DNA of 64,000 nt, from the NCBI GenBank assembly GCA_905182525.1, contig CAJJBV010000003.1, forward strand, positions 186,001 through 250,000, given 5' to 3'. The notes beneath the pieces were generated by a model that saw only the letters and a program-made list of their open reading frames with translations, made no database searches and was not told the DNA's origin. This stretch comes from Cryomorphaceae bacterium. GTDB lineage: Bacteria; Bacteroidota; Bacteroidia; Flavobacteriales_D; Parvicellaceae. A program made the translations under genes and the position numbers. Positions 23,933 through 28,882 of this stretch are shown here, piece by piece (the stretch's first letter is position 1; the number at the start of each line of letters is the position of its first letter).

Positions 23933-24298
23933 TTAGAATTTTTTAGACTTATAAGAAACAAACATATGAATCCAAACCGATCTGGAAACTACTACTATAT
24001 ATGGTGTTAAGACAATTATAAAGCCCAAAATAAAATATATAATATTTTTCCAGTGGATGCTGGTAAACCAAAATAAAAGATTAAATACAATAAGAGAATT
24101 CAATACTTGAAATCCATAACTTACATATGCAGCACCTTGATAGAAACCTGGCTCTAATGAAAATTTTAAATCGCATTTAGAGCAGCGTTCATGCATCTTG
24201 TTAAGATCTCTTAATTTATAAGGATTTTGATTTATGAAAAGACTACCTATTCTACAATTTGGACATTTAAGTTGGAAAACAGAACGGAAAAAATTCAA
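23933..24298 (-). CDS. DUF983 family membrane protein
   Basis: A 121-residue protein. Two CxxC pairs at the N-terminus (CPNCRIGSLF and CSKCDLKF), likely a small zinc ribbon, precede two membrane helices at about residues 62-80 and 87-106. The GFYQGAAYVSYGFQ segment between them is the DUF983 hallmark. Function is unknown; other members occur near cytochrome oxidase and cell-envelope genes. Its start overlaps the SOUL gene by 4 bases, so the pair is co-transcribed. Confidence 0.85.
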   Translation of the reverse strand: MNFFRSVFQLKCPNCRIGSLFINQNPYKLRDLNKMHERCSKCDLKFSLEPGFYQGAAYVSYGFQVLNSLIVFNLLFWFTSIHWKNIIYFILGFIIVLTPYIVVVSRSVWIHMFVSYKSKKF

Positions 24299-24903
24299 TC
24301 TTTAAAAAGTTTATTTTTCACATCTAAAGCATCTACTTCTACCCAAATTTCATTTTTTCGATTAATAAATTGAAATGGAGGTTGATAAACAGCAATCATG
24401 AAATCGTTATTGCATTTAATGTCGTTTTTCTTTAAAGTATTTAACAGCATCTTGTGATTAGATGCACAATTATTTTCGTTTGCAAAACCACTAAATTTTA
24501 TTGAAGCAATACATTGATTTTTCACGGTTTCAAAAAATATATCCTCGGTGTTTGGAGATGGTAGATTGCTAAACTCCATTGGCATAATAAATGAGAAAGA
24601 GGATTTATTACTCATATTATAAAGAACGGGAGAAGTCATAGCTATTTGCAAACTATCCTTATTTCCACCAAAAATATAGTTGGCCAAAACTGGAAACTTA
24701 CTACTTGCAGAGTTCATATTGTAGGCCTTTGAATTAACAGAGGCTTTTATGTACTCATCGTAGATTTTAAAGTCTATAGAATCTATAGTGCCAAGAATTA
24801 CATTTGGTAGCGTTTCATAATTTTTATTAGAATAAGAAGTATAAAATTGCCATGCAGTAAAAACAAATAAAATTGCAAAAAATATGTAGAGGAAAGTTTT
24901 CAT
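24295..24903 (-). CDS. SOUL/HBP-like heme-binding family protein
   Basis: A 202-residue protein with one N-terminal membrane segment (FLYIFFAILFVFTAWQFYT). The family pattern occurs in order: YDEYIKASVN, LANYIFGGNKDSLQIAMTSPV, SFSFIMPMEFS, SIKFSGFA and the C-terminal NRKNEIWVEVDAL. SOUL proteins bind heme or other tetrapyrroles in eukaryotes; for bacterial members this is not established. It is probably membrane-anchored on the periplasmic side and is followed by the overlapping DUF983 gene. Confidence 0.85.
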   Translation of the reverse strand: MKTFLYIFFAILFVFTAWQFYTSYSNKNYETLPNVILGTIDSIDFKIYDEYIKASVNSKAYNMNSASSKFPVLANYIFGGNKDSLQIAMTSPVLYNMSNKSSFSFIMPMEFSNLPSPNTEDIFFETVKNQCIASIKFSGFANENNCASNHKMLLNTLKKNDIKCNNDFMIAVYQPPFQFINRKNEIWVEVDALDVKNKLFKD

Positions 24904-24970
24904 TTATTGATAAACAAATATACTAAAATTATTAATTTTGTTTAATTTTAAAAACTAAATATTAAACAGA

Positions 24971-25672
24971 ATGTTTGTAGGCATTGATGGATATATAAAT
25001 GGTTGGTGTTGCTGTATAATACAGGAGAATATTAGAATAGAATTGCATGAAAATTTAAATAATTTATTTGAAACTATCGGAACTAATAACCTAACATTAA
25101 TCGATATACCTTTAGGGCTTTCTTCTAAAAATTTTGAAAGAAGTATTGATTTTAAGTTAAGAACTTATTTGCCTAAAAATAAAAAAAGTAGTGTTTTTAC
25201 AGCTCCTTGCCGAGAAGCAGTTTTAAGTAGTGACTACAGTTCTGCAAAAGAAGCAAATAAAATTATAACCAAAAGAAGCATTTCAATACAGTCTTGGAAT
25301 ATTAGTAAAAAAATTAAAGAGGCCGATGAGTTCTTAAGTTCTAATATTGAAAATAAATTTTTAATTCATGAATCACACCCTGAATTTTGTTTTATCAATT
25401 TAAATAATAACAAACCACTTTTATTTAATAAAAAAACAAAAGATGGGTTTGAAGAAAGGGTTTCTATTCTAAGCAATTATGAAAAACAAATTTCATTTAT
25501 TGTAGAAGATTTTTTTAAGAAAAATAAAAAAGAAATGGTGAAAAAAGATGATATTTTAGACTCAATTGCACTAGCAATAACTTCAAAAAAATGGCAAAAA
25601 AACGGATCTAGAATTATTACACAATCACCTGAAAATGACGAATTAGGTATACCATTTGAAATTTATTACTAA
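24971..25672 (+). CDS. DUF429 family protein
   Basis: A 233-residue protein with the DUF429 layout, an RNase H-like fold. It opens with VGIDGYINGWCC, has TLIDIPLGLSS near residue 46 and VFTAPCREAV near 83. HESHPEFCFINLNN near 139 and DDILDSIALAIT near 202 carry conserved acidic and His residues. The biochemical role of the family is unknown. It is the first gene of a four-gene plus-strand operon; its TAA overlaps the photolyase ATG (TAATG). Confidence 0.85.
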   Translation: MFVGIDGYINGWCCCIIQENIRIELHENLNNLFETIGTNNLTLIDIPLGLSSKNFERSIDFKLRTYLPKNKKSSVFTAPCREAVLSSDYSSAKEANKIITKRSISIQSWNISKKIKEADEFLSSNIENKFLIHESHPEFCFINLNNNKPLLFNKKTKDGFEERVSILSNYEKQISFIVEDFFKKNKKEMVKKDDILDSIALAITSKKWQKNGSRIITQSPENDELGIPFEIYY

Positions 25673-27150
25673 TGATGAAAATAAATATAATTTTTCCAAA
25701 CCAACTATTTAAAGACTCCGAGCTTTTAGATGAAAACTCCACTCATTATATTATTGAAGAGAACATGTTCTTTAATCATTATAATTTTCATAAACAAAAA
25801 ATATATTTTCATAGATGCTCCATGAAAAATTATTATGACTTCTTGGTGCTTAAAGGGCTCAAGGTAAATTATATAAATTCTAACGATGAAAACTCAGATA
25901 TTAGAAAGTTTATTGATCAGCTAAATAGTACTGAAATTGATAAAATTCAATGTATTGATCCTGAAGATAATTGGCTAGAAAAAAGGTTAAGAGAATCGTC
26001 AAAAAAGAAAGGTATTGATCTTGTATTATTAGAAAATCCTGCATTTATTAATACCAAAAAAGATCTTGATCCATTTTTTAGAACAGACAAGAAAAAATTA
26101 TATCAAACATCATTTTATAAAGCCGAAAGAAATAGACTTCATATTTTATTAGATGGTATAAACACTCCACAAGGCGGCAAATGGACCTATGATGATCAAA
26201 ACAGAGAAAAGTATCCTAAAGATAAAACCACTCCGAAAATTAATTTTCCAAAAAAAACTAAAAATCATCAAGAAGCGTTATTATATGTTGAAAATAATTT
26301 TAAAAATAATAATGGTGCGTTAAGCGATGACCCTCTGTATCCAACAGATTTTGAAACTGCTGAAAATTGGTTCAATGATTTTTTAAAAACTAGATTTAAA
26401 GAGTTTGGTCCTTATGAGGATGCTATATTAAAAGAGAAATCAATTATCAATCATAGCATATTATCACCACTTATAAATTCAGGTTTATTGTATCCTAAAA
26501 TTATTGTAAATAAAACACTAGAATATTATAAAAAAAATAATATTCCTATTAATTCTTGTGAGGGTTTCATAAGGCAAATTATTGGATGGAGAGAATTTAT
26601 TCGAGGTGTTTATCGTTGCAAAGGAACTGAAGAGAGAACTAAAAACTTTTGGGGATTCAACAGGAAAATTCCAGAATCTTTTTATAGTGGAACAACTGGT
26701 ATCGAACCTCTTGATGATACTATACATAAAATAAATAAATCTGGATATGCAAATCATATTGAAAGATTAATGATTGTTGGGAATTTTATGCTTTTATGTG
26801 AATTTGATCCAGATGAAGTTCATAGATGGTTTATGGAGCTTTTTATTGACTCTTATGACTGGGTAATGGTTCCTAACGTTTACGGGATGAGTCAATTTGC
26901 CGATGGAGGACTAATGTCTTCTAAACCTTATATAAGTAGTAGCAATTATATTATAAAAATGAGTAATTATAAAAAAGGAGAATGGTGTAAAATTTGGGAC
27001 GGGTTATTCTGGAATTTTATGGATAAACAAAGAGCTTTTTTCCTTAAAAACCCTAGAATGAGAATGCTAATTAGTAGTTTTGATAAAATGGATTCATCCA
27101 AAAAAGAAACTCACTTAGTTACAGCTGACAATTTTTTAAACAGTCTTTAA
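25672..27150 (+). CDS. Cryptochrome/photolyase-related protein of the FeS-BCP (DPRP) family lacking Fe-S ligands
   Basis: A 492-residue flavoprotein related to the bacterial (6-4) photolyases such as Agrobacterium PhrB. The N-terminal Rossmann-like domain (about 1-130) is followed by a helical FAD domain with EGFIRQIIGWREFIRG near 303, YANHIERLMIVGNFMLL and PNVYGMSQFADGGLMSSKPYIS near 410. In PhrB four Cys hold a 4Fe-4S cluster. Here only the last (Cys439, in GEWCKIW) is present; the first is Pro and the CxxC pair and its loop are missing. The cluster is therefore probably absent. A repair role (6-4 or CPD) is inferred from family and not shown. Confidence 0.88.
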   Translation: MMKINIIFPNQLFKDSELLDENSTHYIIEENMFFNHYNFHKQKIYFHRCSMKNYYDFLVLKGLKVNYINSNDENSDIRKFIDQLNSTEIDKIQCIDPEDNWLEKRLRESSKKKGIDLVLLENPAFINTKKDLDPFFRTDKKKLYQTSFYKAERNRLHILLDGINTPQGGKWTYDDQNREKYPKDKTTPKINFPKKTKNHQEALLYVENNFKNNNGALSDDPLYPTDFETAENWFNDFLKTRFKEFGPYEDAILKEKSIINHSILSPLINSGLLYPKIIVNKTLEYYKKNNIPINSCEGFIRQIIGWREFIRGVYRCKGTEERTKNFWGFNRKIPESFYSGTTGIEPLDDTIHKINKSGYANHIERLMIVGNFMLLCEFDPDEVHRWFMELFIDSYDWVMVPNVYGMSQFADGGLMSSKPYISSSNYIIKMSNYKKGEWCKIWDGLFWNFMDKQRAFFLKNPRMRMLISSFDKMDSSKKETHLVTADNFLNSL

Positions 27151-27162
27151 ATCTTTAAATAA

Positions 27163-27576
27163 ATGGGGTTATACAACATCACCTACAAAAATAAAGAGAA
27201 TGAAAAACTCATTAACCAAGAAATGGGAAATGCTTATTCTATAATCAATAAATTAAAGCTTGGCGGTATAGGGTCTAGAAGAATGATTATTGAACATTTT
27301 AGTGAGAACATGAATCATTTAAAGTTAAAAGTTAGTGGATTACAATATGGCAATATTGAAATTAGGCCTAGTGGAATAATTTTACACATAAATCAAGGTA
27401 TTTACACCTACGCTTGGACCATTCCTTTTTTTCATTTAAATATTTATAACGGGGATTATTTTACAATTCATGGAGCGGGAGAATTTATTCAATTTAACAG
27501 AGAAAAAAGCTGGAAAGAAAACCGTACATTTCTTAATAAGTTAGTCCATCTAAAGGCCAATTTTAATCCTATTTAA
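27163..27576 (+). CDS. Hypothetical protein in photolyase operon
   Basis: A 137-residue protein without signal peptide or membrane helix that I do not recognise. It is rich in beta-strand patterns, for example NMNHLKLKVSGLQYGNIEIRPSGIILHI and YTYAWTIPFFHLNIYN, with a basic C-terminus. It starts 12 bases after the photolyase gene and ends 2 bases before the thioesterase start, so it is a firm operon member. A role with the photolyase or thioesterase is possible but only inferred from position. Confidence 0.75.
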   Translation: MGLYNITYKNKENEKLINQEMGNAYSIINKLKLGGIGSRRMIIEHFSENMNHLKLKVSGLQYGNIEIRPSGIILHINQGIYTYAWTIPFFHLNIYNGDYFTIHGAGEFIQFNREKSWKENRTFLNKLVHLKANFNPI

Positions 27577-27578
27577 AT

Positions 27579-28100
27579 ATGTACCCTATACTAAGGCTAA
27601 TAAAAGTTGTTACTGTAAGTCAATTTCAAAAGAAACTTTCCTTTGATAATGAATATATTGACCGCATAAATCTTATGGTTTTACCGCAAGATATAGATCC
27701 TTTCATGGAACTTAATAATGGTAGATATGTTACACTTTTAGATTTAGGAAGATTTAGCCTTGGTGCCAAAGTAAACATGGGAGGTTTTTTAAAAAGAAAT
27801 AAATGGTCTTTAACAATTATTGGAACTTATAATGAATATAGATATAGATTAAGACTTTTTCAGCGTTTTGTATTACAAACTAAAATTATTGGATATGATG
27901 ATAAATGGTTTTATTTTTTTCAGAAAGCAGAAAGAAATGGAAAAACTCATATGGCATCGGTAGTTAAATTTGCATACACTAGTAAAGAAGGTTTAGTAAT
28001 GCCTAAAGTGGTTATTTCTGCAATGGGAATAAAATACGAGCCAAATAAACTTCCAACATGGATTAATGAGCTGACAGAACATCAGCTTTTTAAAAAATAG
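27579..28100 (+). CDS. Hotdog-fold acyl-CoA thioesterase (4HBT/THEM6-like)
   Basis: A 173-residue protein. The segment LPQDIDPFMELNNGRYVTLLDLGRF is the hotdog active-site pattern (D-x-x-x-x-x-NNGRY), as in 4-hydroxybenzoyl-CoA thioesterase-like and THEM6-like proteins. Later strands (FVLQTKIIGYDDKWFYFFQKAERNGK) fit the fold. It probably hydrolyses an acyl thioester; the acyl group is unknown. It is the last gene of the DUF429-photolyase operon and converges on proteorhodopsin across a hairpin terminator. Confidence 0.8.
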   Translation: MYPILRLIKVVTVSQFQKKLSFDNEYIDRINLMVLPQDIDPFMELNNGRYVTLLDLGRFSLGAKVNMGGFLKRNKWSLTIIGTYNEYRYRLRLFQRFVLQTKIIGYDDKWFYFFQKAERNGKTHMASVVKFAYTSKEGLVMPKVVISAMGIKYEPNKLPTWINELTEHQLFKK

Positions 28101-28103
28101 CAT

Positions 28104-28128
28104 AAAAAAAGGAGGGCAAGCCCTCCTT
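28104..28128 (-). terminator. Terminator between thioesterase and proteorhodopsin genes
   Basis: GGAGGGC (28111-28117) and GCCCTCC (28120-28126) form a GC-rich hairpin. Read on the minus strand it is followed by seven T, which fits the end of the proteorhodopsin transcript. On the plus strand a less regular T run follows, so it may also stop the photolyase operon. Confidence 0.85.
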
Positions 28129-28150
28129 AAAAAAATATTTTTAGTTTATG

Positions 28151-28882
28151 TTACTTCGAAGAAGAAGAAACAGCTAAGTTGTAAACAACTAGACCAAAAC
28201 CAATTTTGTTGATAGCATCACCAATGTTATAAATAACATCCATGTCTAATCCACCAAATATTCCTTCATACCAACCTGGAGTACCAGCCATATATCCAAT
28301 TGGATAAATTGCCCATCCTATTAATACAAATTTACATAGAATATTGTGAGCCTTAAGAACTTCTCCACCAGCTGAAGTAGCTAATGCTTTTGCCTCTCCG
28401 AACCAGATTATATACACTATGTAAAAGTAAGCAGCACCAGAAACAGCTCCCCATACTTGGGCATTTGCTTGGTCTACACCTTCACCAGCATATCCAGTTA
28501 CTAACATTACTGTAGATGCTCCAATAAGAGTCCACATTAATCTTTTAGTTGCACCAGCTGCTCTTAGAATTAAATAAAATTCTACGCACATTAATGGTAC
28601 AGTTAGAATCCAATCAACATATCTAAAAAATGTTGGAGATTCAGCGTTAGTAGCCCAGTAATCACGCATGTAATAATAGTGAACTGCTGCTATAAAAGTA
28701 ATGAGTCCTGAGACTAAAATAGAAGTTCTCCATTTTGCGTCAAAAGAATTCATTGATAAGAAAAAGAAGGCCGAAGCCGCCATCATGGCCATACATCCTA
28801 CAAAAAATGTAAAACCAACATAATCATCAGTAGCCATTTTGGGTACTGCGAGTAACATATTATTTAAAGTTTCCATATTCAA
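28151..28882 (-). CDS. Proteorhodopsin, green-absorbing proton pump
   Basis: A 243-residue seven-helix retinal protein that exports protons in light. Helix C (RYVDWILTVPLMCVEFY) carries Asp90, Thr94 and Glu101, the acceptor-Thr-donor (DTE) set of outward proton pumps. The tuning site is Met98, which corresponds to residue 105 of the reference protein; Met or Leu there gives green absorption, Gln blue. His68 matches the conserved His75. Lys226 in helix G (DAINKIGFGLVV) binds retinal. No retinal synthesis gene (blh) is in the window. It is monocistronic, with its own promoter and terminator. Confidence 0.97.
   Translation of the reverse strand: MNMETLNNMLLAVPKMATDDYVGFTFFVGCMAMMAASAFFFLSMNSFDAKWRTSILVSGLITFIAAVHYYYMRDYWATNAESPTFFRYVDWILTVPLMCVEFYLILRAAGATKRLMWTLIGASTVMLVTGYAGEGVDQANAQVWGAVSGAAYFYIVYIIWFGEAKALATSAGGEVLKAHNILCKFVLIGWAIYPIGYMAGTPGWYEGIFGGLDMDVIYNIGDAINKIGFGLVVYNLAVSSSSK

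Follow-up and report, generated by a model that had tools for sequence, protein, structure and literature searches.

The four cysteines that bind the 4Fe-4S cluster of PhrB (Cys350, Cys438, Cys441 and Cys454) were termed completely conserved across the FeS-BCPs in 2011 (PMC3204975). A gene in a 64,000-nucleotide stretch of DNA from a Cryomorphaceae bacterium (contig CAJJBV010000003.1; the whole stretch is called the window below) encodes a photolyase of this family in which, according to the original prediction, three of the four are lost. This raises the questions of whether a cluster could still be bound, what stabilises the C-terminal cap in its place and what the protein does. The PhrB cysteine positions given in that prediction agree with PMC3204975.

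Identification of the photolyase gene

The gene was taken from the list of open reading frames of the 64-kb window and encodes 492 residues. The interval that first drew attention, 26500-27150, is the C-terminal FAD/cap half of the protein. The N-terminal domain is PF04244, the domain of the PhrB/DPRP family, and the Pfam DPRP match (E 1.6e-50) was above the cut-off. FAD_binding_7 remained below the Pfam threshold with 22.2 bits against a cut-off of 27 bits. PF00875, the N-terminal domain of class I CPD photolyases, gave no Pfam match at E 0.01, and the only match in NCBIfam was to DASH, far under its cut-off. Comparison with PhrB (4dja) by phmmer gave E 4e-71, and the best solved relatives in a PDB sequence search were prokaryotic (6-4) photolyases and CryB. 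An AlphaFold2 (AF2) model, run on 41 cluster-free sequences, matched 4dja over 485 residues with Z 49.5 and an rmsd of 2.0, indicating a PhrB-like full-length fold. No protein in the phage-record collection matched the photolyase. Judged from sequence comparison, the gene very probably encodes a cluster-free prokaryotic (6-4) photolyase of the PromaPL or "subgroup M" kind, with a cluster that was probably lost once. Features of the locus are listed in Table 1.

Table 1. Features of the photolyase locus, in window coordinates
Feature	Position	Strand	Evidence
SOUL haem-binding protein gene, divergent from DUF429	24295..24903	-	Pfam PF04832; 8/9 own-family loci
DUF429 gene, last base overlaps photolyase start	24971..25672	+	Pfam; directly upstream in 8/9 own-family loci, ninth on a 4.3-kb contig
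Predicted cluster-free prokaryotic (6-4) photolyase, PhrB/DPRP family, PromaPL type, 492 aa	25672..27150	+	ORF, Pfam DPRP, phmmer, AF2 model, tree
Tyr338, equivalent to PhrB Trp342 (photoreduction Trp)	26683..26685	+	Tyr in 108/143, Trp in 35/143 cluster-free rows; PMC4619345
Pro346, at the place of ligand PhrB Cys350	26707..26709	+	Pro in 142/143 cluster-free rows; Cys in 105/105 FeS rows
His362, equivalent to PhrB His366, needed for (6-4) repair in PhrB	26755..26757	+	His in 143/143 cluster-free and 105/105 FeS rows; PMC4619345
Trp386, equivalent to PhrB Trp390, kept	26827-26829	+	Alignment
Tyr420 and Tyr426, equivalent to PhrB Tyr424 (lesion binding) and Tyr430	26929..26949	+	Tyr in 142/143 cluster-free rows, remaining row a gap
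Shortened loop and helix start, residues 434-446, replacing the CxxC...C segment; Trp438, Cys439, Trp442, Asp443, Phe446	26971..27009	+	About 10 residues shorter than PhrB
137-aa protein adjoining photolyase	27163..27576	+	Homologue near photolyase in 19/100 loci, 9 of these own family
Thioesterase-like (4HBT_2) gene, same run	27579..28100	+	Pfam PF13279; 9/9 own-family loci
Bac_rhodopsin (proteorhodopsin-type) gene, converging on photolyase run	28151..28882	-	Pfam PF01036; same place in 9/9 own-family loci

Loss of the cluster ligands

An alignment of 248 rows was made from the photolyase, PhrB, 29 best matches from 60 relative genomes, 129 proteins from a sample of 395 genomes of the phylum, 80 from named loci (the best 80 of 583 confirmed candidates) and 8 from plasmid loci. 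All four cysteines were found in 105 rows, the remaining 143 were cluster-free and no row was intermediate; as relatives were drawn nearest first, cluster-free proteins are over-represented, close relatives appear repeatedly and the ratio of 143:105 is no census. Two of the 143 cluster-free rows end before the CxxC (L156 and L069, the latter with an in-frame stop).

Cys350 of PhrB is replaced by Pro346 in the photolyase and Cys454 by Lys440, both with agreement of phmmer and MAFFT. Cys441 falls in a gap of about 10 residues, and Cys438 is paired with Lys434 in the large MAFFT alignment and with a gap in phmmer and the small MAFFT alignment, so that none of the four FeS-BCP cysteines is present. 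Replacement of the first ligand and deletion of the CxxC loop had thus been correctly foreseen. Cys439, originally thought to be the one ligand that remains, pairs with PhrB Ala453, one residue before Cys454, and the loss is of four cysteines out of four. As a surviving ligand Cys439 was rejected on this offset and because its position is Cys in only 55/143 cluster-free rows. Residues 330-470 of the photolyase contain only two cysteines, 376 and 439, and a CxxC is absent from this region in the photolyase and in all 143 cluster-free rows. Other cysteines as substitute ligands were rejected on these grounds, the alignment giving no four-ligand set in the photolyase. That a 4Fe-4S cluster seems impossible, as had been proposed, is supported by the sequence, in which neither a ligand nor a CxxC is left. 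An assembly or sequencing error was also rejected, since PhrB position 350 is Pro in all but one of the cluster-free proteins (Leu in L025), which come from many assemblies.

A candidate replacement for the cluster

In PhrB, the 4Fe-4S cluster is regarded as a structural staple. Five columns switch with the cluster, those of Pro346 (142/143), Asp348 (142/143), Trp438 (140/143), Trp442 (139/143) and Asp443 (139/143). About 30 further columns also separate the cluster-free from the FeS rows, which is expected because the two clades are distant. Instead of the cluster, the clade has a Trp-rich segment, GxWxxxWDxLFW, plus the proline.

A structure prediction around the cap, suggested together with the original prediction, gave a folded cap. 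The pLDDT was 93.3 overall, 98 for residues 341-350 and 96-97 for residues 431-450, and a helix of residues 437-452 begins at the former cluster loop. Residues 401-420 form the weak part of the model, with a pLDDT of 67-69. Pro346, Trp438, Trp442 and Asp443, the shortened loop and the helix from residue 437 are, on the alignment and the model, candidate stabilisers of the cap. The work of the cluster would be taken over by the shortened loop leading into the helix, with the four residues lying near the former cluster site. Among eight family sequences in the PDB no solved cluster-free member was found; the ligand cysteines were seen in six, the alignments of 9q8f and 7ykn set aside. 9q8f is, by its title, a mutant of the Caulobacter enzyme, and 7ykn is the V. 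cholerae enzyme, for which a cluster is described (PMC9852545).

Descent and distribution

A tree was calculated from 160 representatives after removal of the trait columns. All 108 cluster-free representatives were found on one side of a branch with an SH-aLRT of 100, and the predicted cluster-free branch was thereby borne out as one clade by alignment and tree. A Prochlorococcus row (L126), a single-cell-genome sequence and not the published PromaPL, lies inside this side of the branch. In an outgroup tree with 13 photolyases of other classes the cluster-free rows were nested inside the FeS rows (branch 98), which points to cluster loss rather than a primitive lack; the rooting is weak, with very long outgroup branches, and the two trees differ in the FeS lineages that they place beside the clade, each placement having starred support. 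The cluster was probably lost once from an FeS ancestor. Cluster absence as the ancestral state was weakly rejected by the outgroup rooting, in which long branches meet.

In the sample of 395 genomes of the phylum, DPRP was present in 132, of which 40 had the cluster-free and 92 the FeS type; three genomes whose hits were all weak (G279, G424 and G395) were left unclassed. Each had one DPRP, except G447 (13% contamination), which had two copies of equal score, one of which was aligned. Both types were never observed in one genome, against 9.3 such genomes expected under random pairing (P 1.3e-5, uncorrected for kinship). Both types did occur within one genus, in different species, in three genera (g33, g39 and g113). 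The cluster-free and FeS types look like two versions of one function that replace each other.

By the titles of the best 80 of the 583 candidates, the clade spans Bacteroidota, Prochlorococcus and other cyanobacteria, Planctomycetota, Verrucomicrobiota, Candidatus Actinomarina and Neomarinimicrobiota; many of these records are MAGs, which may contain stray contigs. Two Prochlorococcus single-cell genomes each had one DPRP gene. A cluster-free photolyase with 42% identity and Pro at PhrB position 350 was also found on a viral contig (L272, IMGVR_UViG_3300006481_000154, 504-2180), where its neighbours are phage-type genes for a helicase loader, an exonuclease and a single-strand DNA binding protein. 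Four other viral-contig matches all carry the four cysteines. On two plasmid loci (L250:1-105 and L251:25-177) a DUF2256 gene was found directly upstream of an FeS-type photolyase, two genes in all.

Relation to known photolyases

The original prediction spoke of a family defined by its cluster. This description is outdated, since PMC9178010 already separates a cluster-less subgroup M. As early as 2015, 7% of 464 homologues were reported to lack both Tyr460 and the cysteines (PMC4619345); this position is Phe446 in the photolyase, and Tyr is kept in 30/143 cluster-free rows. In 2022, subgroup M was described with 20 of 110 sequences, including PromaPL of Prochlorococcus, and the name prokaryotic 6-4 photolyases was proposed for the whole group, in which FeS-BCP would be a subtype (PMC9178010). 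Phr2 of marine picocyanobacteria was, in the same year, said to correspond to PromaPL and to be mostly without the cysteines (PMC9426592).

The photolyase shares the absence of the four cysteines with the PromaPL kind, and Prochlorococcus proteins, represented by single-cell-genome sequences, fall in the same clade. The Prochlorococcus proteins among the best 80 of the 583 candidates are 49-50% identical to the photolyase and have Pro at PhrB position 350 and the motif GPWC.IWDGLFW. They differ in His at PhrB position 365, which is Asn in the photolyase. Compared with PromaPL, the photolyase is set apart by its DUF429/4HBT/rhodopsin neighbourhood. With PhrB it shares the whole fold and the equivalents of H366, Y424, Y430, D179, D254 and W390, whereas the four cysteines, the 4Fe-4S cluster, Trp342 and Tyr391 are found in PhrB only, and none of the DMRL-pocket residues of PhrB (E37, H43, I51 and R108) is present. 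SePhrB of Synechococcus elongatus (8ijy) is similar in fold (Z 45.4) and has a Met near FAD N5 at the position of PhrB E403 (PMC9178010), which is likewise Met in 142/143 cluster-free rows. It differs in having a cluster and an 8-HDF antenna, the genome here having no CofG hit. Phr2 of marine Synechococcus is alike by its description, as a counterpart of PromaPL that mostly lacks the cysteines, and differs in the CPD activity that its authors infer (PMC9426592).

Photoreduction path and antenna pocket

PhrB Tyr391 is replaced by Phe in 142/143 cluster-free rows, but also in 47/105 FeS rows. According to PMC9178010, the photoreduction chain is intact in no member of subgroup M, whose antenna pattern is termed complex. 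In the pocket (PhrB numbering), the cluster-free rows have Phe at E37 (137/143), Phe at H43 (127/143), His at I51 (134/143) and Trp at R108 (89/143), and Lys47 is kept (138/143). FO synthase CofG gave no hit in the photolyase's own genome, which is 96% complete, and native 8-HDF is therefore unlikely.

These substitutions suggest, tentatively, a rebuilt enzyme. Its pocket of Phe34, Phe39, Lys43, His47 and mostly Trp at PhrB Arg108 differs from both the DMRL and the 8-HDF pattern as published, and could hold an antenna new to prokaryotic 6-4 photolyases, or none. The photoreduction path would be altered (Tyr for Trp342 in most members, Phe for Tyr391), and a plug of Pro and Trp would substitute for the 4Fe-4S cluster. 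As a whole, this picture is possible yet doubtful.

Gene neighbourhood

The order SOUL, DUF429, photolyase, 137-aa protein, 4HBT and rhodopsin (window 24295-28882) is conserved in the photolyase's own family. The 137-aa protein had no match in Pfam or NCBIfam, and four photolyase neighbours had none in NCBIfam. Among 100 loci, many of them on short contigs, a homologue of the genome's 428-aa photolyase was found in 28 (24 at 90 bits or more), a homologue of its FAD-domain-only protein in 22 and a flavin reductase in 20. In relatives, the photolyase gene is often near other photolyase and flavin-reductase genes. The FAD-domain-only protein, encoded at about 240.4 kb of the same genome (G000:C1; L162:1489-2238), has 249 residues with only part of a photolyase FAD domain and lies beside genes for a flavin reductase and a histone-deacetylase-like protein. 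Near cluster-free photolyases, most of its homologues exceed this length (median 372 aa), and the 249-aa copy may therefore be shortened. Proteorhodopsin-bearing Flavobacteriia have more photolyase genes (PMC5932025). A literature search for proteorhodopsin together with photolyase or cryptochrome in Bacteroidetes gave nothing evidently on this gene.

Repair residues and likely function

In mutants of PhrB, His366 and Tyr424 were essential and Tyr430 was needed for efficient repair (PMC4619345). These three residues are found in the photolyase as H362, Y420 and Y426. PhrB H366, Q306, L370, M371 and D254 are identical in 143/143 cluster-free rows, D179, Y424 and Y430 are kept in 142/143 and M410 in 141/143. 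PhrB His365 is Asn361 in the photolyase (26752-26754) and His in 121/143 cluster-free rows. Asn at this position, beside the essential His, was found in 22/143 cluster-free proteins in all. The genome has a separate gene for a 428-aa PF00875/PF03441 photolyase, whose motifs, as we read them, place it in class I. At E 0.001, PF00875 was matched in 36 of the 40 cluster-free genomes, two of these matches being weak, and the four genomes without belong to one genus (g93).

Repair of (6-4) lesions is favoured by the conserved residues, by the exclusivity of the two gene types and by the presence of a separate PF00875-type photolyase, although residues and exclusivity are no proof of (6-4) activity. 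UV protection is on record for Phr2: without it a marine Synechococcus survives UV-B less well, and E. coli is protected by it against UV-B and UV-C (PMC9426592). In such a reaction FAD would be bound in the PhrB-like helical domain, blue light would excite FADH- and an electron would pass to the 6-4 lesion. His362 would supply a proton, and Tyr420 and Tyr426 may help to hold the lesion.

A change of substrate that came with the loss of the cluster, as proposed for cyanobacterial Phr2, would instead make the protein a CPD photolyase. Phr2 behaves like predicted CPD enzymes in the UV-B tests, and the authors infer CPD activity from the missing cysteines (PMC9426592); the four of 40 cluster-free genomes without a PF00875 match also agree with such a role. 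However, the equivalents of His366, Tyr424 and Tyr430 are conserved, a PF00875 match is present in the other 36 and in the photolyase's own genome, and PMC9178010 names PromaPL a 6-4 photolyase, which makes CPD repair improbable. The lesion-contact residues likewise speak against a role as photoreceptor, a cryptochrome passing light signals to the adjoining rhodopsin and SOUL genes. The neighbourhood of these two genes is conserved in the photolyase's own family, and gene regulation is described for one member of the family, CryB of Rhodobacter (PMC9178010), but outside the nine own-family loci only 3 of 91 gave a rhodopsin gene, many contigs being short, and the neighbours could simply all be light-related. 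A photoreceptor function is accordingly judged very improbable.

A cluster or another metal might, in spite of the lost ligands, be bound through Cys376, Cys439, His and Asp, in relatives also Cys360. Position 376 is Cys in 132/143 cluster-free rows and position 360 in 82/143 (Ala360 in the photolyase itself), positions 360, 376 and 439 are all three Cys in 25 rows, and nine of the 143 have four or five cysteines in the 330-470 region. With only two cysteines in this region of the photolyase, no CxxC in any of the 143 rows, the CxxC loop deleted and the cap modelled at high confidence without a metal, binding of this kind is hardly credible. A cluster-free (6-4) photolyase is the reading retained.

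Significance of the cluster-free clade

The cluster-free branch itself is already known, and the photolyase is a further, well-anchored member of it and not a lone oddity. The clade bears on the origin of cluster loss. A FEBS J paper on PromaPL reportedly holds the idea that iron-poor seawater drove the loss. The tree agrees with a single origin, and members of the clade among the best 80 of the 583 candidates include, by title, the soil, air or freshwater genera Dyadobacter, Segetibacter and Fluviicola.

The role of the cluster in PhrB is hard to test, because conditions intended to remove it gave little or no soluble protein (PMC4619345). A large natural cluster-free clade is a matching control for this role, and the small set of columns that change in concert (Pro at PhrB position 350, the shortened loop, Trp438, Trp442 and Asp443) suggest what a cluster-free cap needs.
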